A DNA stretch of 64,000 nt from Imbricaverruca yamaguchii (taxonomy: Eukaryota; Arthropoda; Thecostraca; Neoverrucidae): positions 2,147,501 through 2,211,500 of the forward strand of contig JAOTOL010001640.1 in the NCBI GenBank assembly GCA_034440575.1, read 5' to 3'. Position 1 is the first letter of the stretch. Each line of letters begins with the position of its first letter. The notes below the pieces were generated by a model. It was not told the origin of the DNA, ran no database searches, and saw only the letters and a list, made by a program, of their open reading frames with translations. Below are positions 4,255 through 48,600 of the stretch, in pieces. The translations under genes were made by a program, and so were the position numbers.

Positions 4255-4740
4255 ACGACTGGTGAAGTTACCTGTGCCGTATTCCTGCTTCGTACGTTAG
4301 CCAACTAGGCTGACTGACGAAATACATGTGCCGTATTCCTGTTTCAGGTACGGTGGCTAACTGGGACGACTGGTGAAGGTACCTGTGCCGTATTCCTGTT
4401 TCAGGTACGCTGGCTAACTGGGAGGACTAGTGAAGGTACCTGTGCCGTATTCCTGTTCAGGTACGGTGGCTAACGGGAGGACTAGTGAAGTTACCTGTGC
4501 CGTATTCCTGTTTCAGGTACGCTGGCTAACTGGGACGACTGGTGAAGTTACCTGTGCCGTATTCCTGTTTCAGGTACGCTGGCTAACTGGGACGACTGGT
4601 GAAGGTACCTGTGCCGTATTCCTGTTTCAGGTACGGTGGCTAACTGGGACGACTGGTGAAGTTACCTGTGCCGTATTCCTGTTTCAGGTACGGTGGCTAA
4701 CTGGTGGACTAGTGAGTTACCTGTGCCGTATTCTGTTTGT
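4255..4740 (+). repeat. 57-bp minisatellite carrying a 3' splice-site motif (9 units)
   Basis: About nine tandem units of 57 bp, recognised by GTGCCGTATTCCTGTTTCAG followed by GTACGCTGGC. Each unit has a branch-point-like CTAAC and a strong acceptor TATTCCTGTTTCAG. The array runs straight into the CARP exon that ends at 4766, and the first ten exon-side bases (GTACGCTGGC) are the bases that follow AG in every unit. Because 57 is divisible by three, most units are open in one frame as a 19-residue repeat. In the unit nearest the exon the acceptor CAG is missing. Confidence 0.9.
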
Positions 4741-4766
4741 ACGCTGGCGCTACGACGGCATCTCGG
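4688..4766 (+). CDS. CA10: CARP exon with RWRYDGISG; 5' border uncertain
   Basis: The 3' end is clear: RWRYDGIS followed by one base of Gly, then the donor GG/GTAAGG at 4767. The leftover G joins GG of the next exon to give GISG-PAYWG, as in arthropod CARPs. The acceptor next to this sequence is damaged: the array unit reads TTTCAGGTACG, but here it reads TTTGTACG. The nearest in-frame acceptor is one array unit upstream (TTTCAG at 4682-4687), which would add about 17 repeat-encoded residues. An alternative is ACTAG near 4712. Confidence 0.7.
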
Positions 4767-45600: not shown

Positions 45601-48600
45601 TGCCAGACCAGACAACAGACCACGTCAGGCTACCTCACTGTGGGCCAGATCTGCACAGTGGTGATCAGTCTGCCGGACCAGAAAGCAACCACGTCAGGCT
45701 GCCACAGTGTGGGCCAGATCTGCACAGTGGTGATCAGTCTGCCGGACCAGACAACAGACCACGTCAGGCTGCCACAGTGTGGGCCAGATCTGCACAGTGG
45801 TGATCAGTCTGCCGGACCAGAAAGCAACCACGTCAGGCTGCCACAGTGTGGGCCAGATCTGCACAGTGGTGATCAGTCTGCCGGACCAGACAACAGACCA
45901 CGTCAGGCTGCCACAGTGTGGGCCAGATCTGCACAGTGGTGATCAGTCTGCCGGACCAGACAACAGACCACGTCAGGCTGACACACTGTGGGCCAGATCT
46001 GCACAGTGGTGATCAGTCTGCCGGACCAGACAACAGACCACGTCAGGCTGCCACAGTGTGGGCCAGATCTGCACAGTGGTGATCAGTCTGCCGGACCAGA
46101 CAACAGACCACGTCAGGCTGCCACACTGTGGGCCAGATCTGCACAGTGGTGATCAGTCTGCCGGACCAGAAAGCAACCACGTCAGGCTACTTCACTGTGG
46201 GCCAGATCTGCACGGCGGTGGTCAGTCTGCAGGACCAGACAACAGACCACGTCAGGCTGCCACAGTGTGGGCCAGATCTGCACAGTGGTGATCAGTCTGC
46301 CGGACCAGACAACAGACCACGTCAGGCTGCCACACTGTGGGCCAGATCTGCACAGTGGTGATCAGTCTGCCGGACCAGAAAGCAACCACGTCAGGCTGCC
46401 ACAGTGTGGGCCAGATCTGCACAGTGGTGATCAGTCTGCCGGACCAGACAACAGAGCACGTCAGGCTACCTCACTGTGGGCCAGATCTGCACAGTGGTGA
46501 TCAGTCTGCCGGACCAGACAACAGACCACGTCAGGCTACCTCACTGTGGGCCAGATCTACACGGCGGTGGTCAGTCTGCCGGACCAGACAACAGACCACG
46601 TCAGGCTACCTCACTGTGGGCCAGATCTGCACGGCGGTGGTCAGTCTGTCGGACCAGACAGCAACCACGTCAGGCTACTTCACTGTGGGCCAGATCTGCA
46701 CAGTGGTGATCAGTTTGCCGGACGATACAACAGACCACGTCAGGCTACCTCACTGTGGGCCAGATCTACACGGCGGTGATCAGTTGTTATTTGGGTTTTG
46801 GGCACATCGACCATATTTGATCATTTAGCGCCCATAACTAGTGAAATGATAATACCATACTTAGGCCTTCCAAAGTTCTAAAATCCATAGTTACATACGT
46901 CCAAGTCGCACACCTAAACATTCACGCAGAATATATACTATGTCACGTTAGACCGGCGGACGGATGACAGCAAATATTATGTGTGGTGATCAGTCTGTCG
47001 AACGATGAGCAGTCTCATGGAACCACCACAATATGGGTCGGATCCGACTAAACCAGCCAACGGGGTCGATATCAAGCTCTTCTAACACGGAATGCATCAG
47101 TTTTTGTGGCTAGAAAACAGCTACCAAAAACCCCAGATGGTGCACAAAATATAAATTAATTAACGACGACGACGTCATGACATATCCAGTTTCCGGACCA
47201 CCTTGGATCTTTAAAGACGACGGGTGGAATATAGCCACCATAGTTGTTCCACCTTACAAGCCAAATAAATCAAGGTTTTTAAATGCTAATTAAAGCTATA
47301 TGAATACATTGGCGAAACATAAATGAGCTAGCAGTATACATTTTAATAATTTTTTTAATTTACCACTCATTTTTTTAAATTCATTTTTTTAAATAAAATT
47401 AATGATTATAAACATTCCAAAAAAAATACAGCGACACGTCCCTAGTGCACGCAATTCCAGGACGAAGTACCTATTAATTGCTTATTTCTGCTCCAAGTCG
47501 GCACCATGGTTCAACTTTGTCCTCCTTAACATTTGGCATACATCTGCCACATTGATAACACTGAGCTAGACTGCAATTCCTTTCAGATACGTTTCGGATT
47601 ACGTCGGCAGTCCACGAAGCAATACCTGTTGACGACCTCCATGCTGTGCAGGGACATCTCCATGTTGACCAGCACGTTGAAGTAGTCGGTGATCTGCGGC
47701 GAGTCCATCAGCTGGAGCAGAACCTCGATGGCGATGATGGGGTTGTGCTCCACTAAGTCGGGCAGCTGGGGACGGGGTGCCCATGAGTGGCGTGTTCCGG
47801 ACACCGCAGCACGGACTGCACAGTACAGAGCGCACGAGCACACACCTACCGGTAGATATGCCTTCTCTGCTACCCTGACCATGTCGGAGCGGGGATGGCC
47901 GAGTGGTTAAGGTGTCGGGCTATGGGTACCAAAGGTCCCGGGTTCGATTCTAGCGCCACTCAGGATTTCGTTTCACATTTCCCAATCCCGCGGCCCACCG
48001 GCGAAACAGTGTGGGCGGCGCCATTAGCCGCGAATATGCATAAAGTGTGTCGTGAACCAACCAATAAACAAACAAACCCTGACAATGTCACAATTTCAGA
48101 GGTGAGTGATTGCAAATTCAATCAGTTTCATTTTCCACAAAACGCGCATGCACAGCAGCACTGTCATGTCCACGGTTGGACACGTAATTCATAATTCTGA
48201 ATGCGGAGAGGACTCATTTTTTACTAATTGCATAAGGAGAGGATATTTCTATTCAGACATGTGACACCAGGACCCCAGTTCGCACCTTCCAGTGAGTCCT
48301 AAACACTTACCACAGACAAGTTCATTGTCAAACGGCATCATTCAAGCCCGAAATGGAAAAATGAAAGAATAGTTATTTGGAGGGGCTAATGCTCTGGAAA
48401 TGGAAATAACAAGAGCAGCCTATTTCCAACCCTGGCTAGACTTCTCCACATATCCATCTTGTCCGGGTCCGATGCAGGTATTCACCTTTAGTTTCAGAAT
48501 TCCTTAGGCTATATCTGACTCTACATCAGTGTTAAATTATTTGGGAAATAGGGTGGAATATACCACTTATTGAACTCTCGATCTACATCCTTCCCAAAAA

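Follow-up and report, generated by a model that had tools for sequence, protein, structure and literature searches.

In the accounts at hand, tandem arrays built on splice junctions are known from a few genes of lancelets, with comparable ones at single human loci. Among the human loci, the CBS VNTR lies at exon 13, and the minisatellite of IFI6 (6-16) reportedly provides multiple splice donors, a finding ascribed to Turri in 1995. Further afield, a prawn lectin study is said to deal with coding tandem repeats, and a C. elegans study with intronic minisatellites and splicing. The lancelet arrays, termed 'mirages', are minisatellite-like tandem repeats that span exon-intron boundaries in amphioxus Adh3 and the globins BflGb6 and BflGb9; regular splicing is reportedly undisturbed by them, and a role in intron gain has been suggested (PMC3087553). 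TnC and PGBD5 were added to these mirage genes by a further account (PMC3902484), and the unit measures 10-160 bp across the two reports (PMC3087553, PMC3902484). The CBS VNTR has a unit of 31 bp and is denoted c.1444_1467+7(16_21) (PMC2630376), while in IFI6 the repeat units serve as donors and two downstream copies are reported to be used (PMC4526556). Finally, De Grassi and Ciccarelli (2009) reported internal tandem repeats at exon-intron boundaries within human segmental duplications, with 27 intron modifications (PMC2812944). An initial annotation of the DNA studied here had regarded such arrays as an undescribed class; as far as these sources go, the mirages and the CBS and IFI6 loci already represent it.

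The window, that is the whole stretch of DNA that was analyzed, comprises 64,000 nucleotides of the barnacle Imbricaverruca yamaguchii (GCA_034440575.1, contig JAOTOL010001640.1, forward-strand positions 2,147,501-2,211,500). Four arrays had been noted in it at three exons of two genes, CARP (carbonic-anhydrase-related) and CNOT11; TRF recovered all four in place, and protein matches bear out both gene identities (Table 1). The closest relatives of the CARP are the barnacle CARPs of Pollicipes (65%) and Amphibalanus (60%). The further proposal, that each array repeats the junction of its own exon, holds strictly for two of the four, those with the 57-bp and 70-bp units, which contain exon-coding sequence; the other two, with units of 26 and 50 bp, repeat a splice site that adjoins the exon and hold at most about five exon bases. 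The exon content of the units was judged by eye from copy-by-copy listings.

Table 1. Arrays and neighboring exons of the window (positions counted from its first nucleotide; near, close to a junction without spanning it).
Feature	Position	Strand	Basis and remarks
57-bp array	4252..4738	+	TRF, 8.7 copies; nine copies by motif, lying before and inside CARP exon 2
CARP exon 2 remnant, exon-proximal (WRYDGISG)	4739..4766	+	tblastn and copy listing; donor at 4766
26-bp array	4765..5068	+	TRF, 11.7 copies; 12 donor copies, the first at the last two exon bases
39-bp array (near)	8360..9173	+	TRF; ends 15 bp short of the acceptor of CARP exon 9189-9383
50-bp array	20896..21119	+	TRF, 4.5 copies; last of five copies continues into the acceptor of the CARP exon that follows (21128-21282)
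CARP exon	21128..21282	+	Carbonic anhydrase match, E 4e-7
12-bp array (near)	30505..30583	-	TRF; ends 39 bp before a WDR55 acceptor (exon 30465-30305)
23-bp array (near)	44579..45181	-	TRF; begins 44 bp 3' of the donor of the CNOT11 exon
CNOT11 exon (ends KIINVQ)	45226..45390	-	CNOT11 chains in PDB, E 1.4e-26; first exon base 45390
70-bp array	45382..46784	-	TRF, 20.1 copies; last of 20 copies is the real CNOT11 acceptor

The 57-bp unit joins the intron end and CAG (in seven of the nine copies) to about 28 of the first bases of CARP exon 2. TTCAGG followed by the exon 2 start is seen in 7/9 copies, and two copies read VANWDDW and ANWDDW with a stop after each, the Pollicipes CARP P0121 having TANWDDWW by tblastn. 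The final copy (from 4722) is without CAG and some 20 exon bases are missing from it; the earlier view that the last unit of an acceptor array is the real acceptor thus fails here, and it holds for the exon at 21128 and for CNOT11. As assembled, CARP exon 2 seems to be shifted out of frame over 4722-4766, which would reflect either damage through instability of the array or a misassembly. The 26-bp unit carries donors of the GGTAAG or GGTAAGA type, 12 times over, and the 50-bp unit has GCAG in the last three of its five copies. In CNOT11, at what we take to be exon 9 by the numbering of the initial annotation, the 70-bp unit combines the acceptor with a drifted copy of about 19 of the first exon bases; three of its 20 copies match 17 of those 19 bases and most others are more drifted. 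A branch-like motif had also been ascribed to the acceptor units; in the 57-bp unit its clearest instance, CTAAC, sits in the exon-derived part (GCT AAC, encoding Ala-Asn), and we do not count the motif as confirmed there.

Three near-junction arrays go beyond the list of the initial annotation, namely the 39-, 12- and 23-bp arrays of Table 1, and an array edge lies within 45 bp of 6 of the 24 junctions placed in CARP, WDR55 and CNOT11, some of these positions being approximate. The window holds other repetitive features as well: a TG repeat of about 500 bp (5544-6047, by TRF) shortly past an AT repeat; a 33-bp array of 17 copies with 97% matches (18431-19069), whose unit is a multiple of 3 and whose minus strand has an open frame of 213 codons; and, on the minus strand between WDR55 and CNOT11 (35719-36387 and 38017-38409), a reverse transcriptase domain (PF00078, E 1.7e-34) with an upstream GDSL-esterase-like match (E 3e-7, just below its cut-off), which together are perhaps a candidate non-LTR element, if the type is rightly read from these matches.

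The window itself was chosen by eye, and therefore a sample of the genome (767 Mb in 1430 contigs), rather than the window, is the fair test against chance. We took kinase and myosin exons from whole-genome searches, picking them from the match list before their sequence was seen (the kinase picks in an order not strictly that of the list), and ran TRF on them. The kinase matches comprised 136 rows, 14 of which were dropped before counting as having the domain in one exon (L009-L020, L022, L023); the other 122 yielded 106 analyzed exons, with 16 not analyzed. From 72 myosin-head rows, 40 donors were taken in list order, omitting the first (full-length) row, and a donor site was found in 39; these were donor-side pieces of 201 bp each, so that long units and late array starts can escape. 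An array was scored as spanning a junction if it covered 8 or more bases both before and after it, and the expectations are GC-matched with each array counted once. For a sampled kinase open frame the nearest relatives were from Pollicipes pollicipes (77%) and Amphibalanus amphitrite (75%); with the CARP relatives, this agrees with a barnacle genome and led us to reject amphioxus as its source. Two of the dropped rows, L009 and L010, are PAK-like kinases (the PAK identity matched for L010) in both of which a single open frame contains the complete kinase domain, and look like candidate retrocopies. Three consecutive myosin-head exon matches at C1272:95309-99684 all fall on profile positions 376-439; a muscle myosin with mutually exclusive exons is a possible reading.

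Arrays built on splice junctions recur well outside the window, at 17 kinase junctions in 15 loci and at three myosin donors. The sampled spanning arrays have units of 19-110 bp, and in the kinase sample they occur at the donor and acceptor ends of exons alike. The junction repeats of the first kinase set reach at most some 30 bases into exon sequence, and the exon parts repeated in the kinase arrays are coding sequence, such as that for HRDLK, TPYWMAPE, YISPEIL, NRLYTHQ, YSTPIDM and ALDYC. The authentic junction stands at the exon-proximal end of the array in CNOT11 and in kinase loci such as L043, L036 and L070, not in CARP exon 2 as assembled here. The copy at the boundary is more divergent than the inner copies in L024, L070 and L063, and identical to them in L036 and the 33-bp array of L043.

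These counts differ between the two kinds of junction. Kinase donors are spanned in 12 of 94 cases against 3.83 expected (P 6e-4), and kinase acceptors in 5 of 95 against 3.86; the 95 kinase acceptors thus show no excess of crossing arrays over the GC-matched expectation. When only arrays of at least 5 copies are admitted, the figures are 11/94 against 1.91 for the donors and 3/95 against 1.94 for the acceptors. Myosin donors are spanned three times in 39 (expectation 1.55 of 40), which is not significant alone (P 0.2), and pooling kinase and myosin donors gives 15/133 against 5.34 (P 4e-4). The enrichment of arrays at exon borders that had been proposed as a check is therefore seen at donors and not at acceptors, and acceptors account for three of the four arrays originally noted, yet they are not enriched in the wider sample. 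In sum, the rate at donors is roughly two- to threefold that of GC-matched intron, and the rate at acceptors is close to chance; GC richness as a full explanation is accordingly rejected for donors and suffices for acceptors. By set, the kinase donors spanned are 10/56 in the first, and 1/18 and 1/20 in two small later ones, so that most of the donor excess comes from the first. Two of the kinase donors are doubtful: L060, where the donor as placed lies past an in-frame stop (the real one probably lies upstream by a few bases, which would shorten the exon part), and L118, which has 2.1 copies only. Setting these two aside leaves 10/94 kinase donors (P 0.006) and 13/133 pooled (P 0.0035), while kinase donors without stop-readthrough matches give 8/84 against 3.41 (P 0.023). 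In the first kinase set, 30-base words centred on the junction recur at least twice nearby at 10/56 donors and 3/55 acceptors.

Minisatellites are dense in this material: arrays cover 13.1% of 194,375 bases in the first 58 loci (inclusive of L001, the array locus of the window, and the seven loci found with it). It follows that some junctions are hit by chance, and one might hold that nothing else is at work, with dense intron minisatellites sometimes having to start on a junction and no junction-specific process behind it. The acceptor count at expectation fits such plain coincidence, as do the later kinase sets, which taken alone are without excess, and the coverage by arrays, which in the first kinase set stays flat at 0.18-0.25 out to 1.4 kb downstream of the donors. 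Against it stand the pooled donor count and the position of array starts, which cluster just before the kinase donor: of 23 starts between -40 and +300, 10 lie within -40..0 (P 1.3e-4), nine of those 10 being in the first set. The 11 array starts in the 201-bp myosin pieces are at -31, -21, -13, 6, 9, 11, 16, 21, 44, 46 and 83. Upstream of the acceptors in the kinase sets, 13 of 40 arrays end within 60 bp (P 0.017). On balance, we regard coincidence as the whole account as rather unlikely, a judgment to which the behavior of antisense sites, described next, also contributes.

As a control, we scored donor-like sites on both strands. Antisense sites showed no array excess, lying in arrays at 1.7-3.2% across the scores tried. 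At scores of at least 8.4 and outside known exons, 11.1/91.1 sense sites against 1.0/62.0 antisense sites (counted as collapsed sites) are in arrays, and these are held by 11 distinct arrays on the sense and five on the antisense strand (P 0.03 by Fisher's test on rounded counts). With a threshold of 6.1 the proportions are 5.9% on the sense and 2.9% on the antisense strand, and the real donors at or above this score are in arrays in 10/71 cases against about 11/368 antisense sites (P 5e-4); with one of 9.5 they are 3.1/36.1 and 0.6/19.6, respectively. Because antisense donor-like sites are without excess, arrays do not seem to be attracted by the motif or the composition of the DNA as such, and the donor motif acting as a DNA seed is disfavored, also in view of the non-spanning arrays considered below. 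At scores of at least 8.4, array membership is as frequent for sense sites away from known exons as for real donors (12.7% and 6/47, or 12.8%), which weakens the contrast with ordinary intron; we read these sites, tentatively, as donors of exons missing from our annotation.

The strand difference raises the prospect that transcription or splicing promotes tandem duplication at working donors, for instance via RNA-DNA hybrids or breaks at exon borders, such that arrays would mark active donors. Strong donor-like motifs do associate with arrays on the sense strand, and the peak of array starts at the donor is left unexplained by GC or motif alone. Several observations pull the other way. The sense sites away from known exons may simply be donors of exons that are not annotated, and the sample size is modest. 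For shorter motifs, the two strands do not differ clearly across 86 non-spanning arrays from kinase sets one and two, TRF arrays wholly inside exons having been removed (GTRAG 7 vs 3, AGGT 15 vs 14). Further, spanned donors do not clearly differ from other donors in strength (P 0.97), GC (P 0.10 and 0.20) or G-skew (P 0.33). We consider such a link to transcription or splicing improbable on present counts, and it is similarly doubtful that working splice donors are birth hot spots of tandem repeats, with roughly one donor in nine carrying an array of itself. Units of the recursive-splice type (AG/GT) as a general rule are a separate idea that the 86 non-spanning arrays do not support.

The initial annotation had also raised the possibility that selection favors surplus splice sites. 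This could act by securing splicing or by holding U1 along long introns, and the retention of an intact GT in most copies (e.g. 25/25 in L036 and 23/23 in L024) might be taken in its favor. However, mutations affect GT at 5/310 copy positions and the other unit positions at 147/5672, and for AG the figures are 4/100 and 102/2323 (the counts leave out the 10-bp array L068); without L060, L068 and L118 the Fisher P values are 0.53 and 1.0. Neither dinucleotide is detectably better conserved than the remainder of its unit, a comparison that concerted evolution and small numbers limit. Moreover, the spanned donors are not weak donors, and multiples of 3 are not preferred: the unit is divisible by 3 in 5/12 kinase donor-spanning arrays, which is about chance and also disposes of selection for keeping the frame. 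Selection for surplus sites is hence very unlikely in our estimate. Less credible still is that the introns arose by tandem duplication of an exon segment, as in the Rogers model, with the junction repeats as scars. The proposal of mirages as a route of intron gain, in the terms of its source, lends this some precedent (PMC3087553), but the copies sit on one side of existing introns and look young, with a within-array divergence of about 0-8%.

Accordingly, we posit that the arrays are probably neutral minisatellites of the mirage type, tolerated in a minisatellite-rich barnacle genome. Slippage or break repair would make a short tandem duplication across an exon-intron junction, and this might later expand and homogenize as other minisatellites do. 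The extra copies would join on the intron side, leaving the exon with one working junction; because they are added on that side, the surplus junctions could be tolerated as intron, and they would be neither needed nor preserved by selection. Replication slippage or break repair, as suggested from the outset, is the likely origin. The analysis shows directly the anatomy and frequency of the arrays, the donor excess (in the kinase set and pooled), the strand difference and the lack of extra conservation at surplus sites; this mode of duplication, neutrality and normal splicing are inferred. Neutrality and tolerance alone do not account for donors exceeding intron, and the donor excess is a modest new clue, its cause not being established. 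The observation that began this work is largely right and its reach larger than its window. Its interpretation was correct in part: junctions do give rise to arrays, but these belong to a class already described, acceptors have no special place among them, and selection for surplus sites is unsupported.

With about 11% of the sampled donors bearing an array, the origin of such arrays and their relation to alternative splicing and intron gain become testable by counting. There is also a warning here for annotation, as many near-identical copies of a splice site can adjoin the true one. Among literature titles, thinly covering subscription journals, we noticed neither junction arrays in barnacles or other arthropods nor a genome-wide count of them at junctions.

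In terms of known systems, the barnacle arrays and the amphioxus mirages, as the latter are described, have in common a unit that spans the boundary, occurrence at both 5' and 3' ends and many copies with intact splice signals. They differ in that the barnacle arrays come from many sampled loci with a measured donor excess and are known here from DNA alone. The published notation of the CBS VNTR can be read as 24 exon and 7 intron bases over a donor in 16-21 copies, which is the anatomy of the kinase donor arrays; unlike these, it is, as reported, a single human locus that is polymorphic in the population. The IFI6 array, too, repeats the donor at an exon end in the manner of the barnacle donor arrays, and in its case use in mRNA has been reported. 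The repeats of De Grassi and Ciccarelli are likewise minisatellites at exon-intron borders, and differ, by their account, in being defined through variation between recent paralogues and in having transcript support. Thus, the arrangement itself is already known, and what is new here is its barnacle host, how common the arrays are, and the donor excess in the sample.
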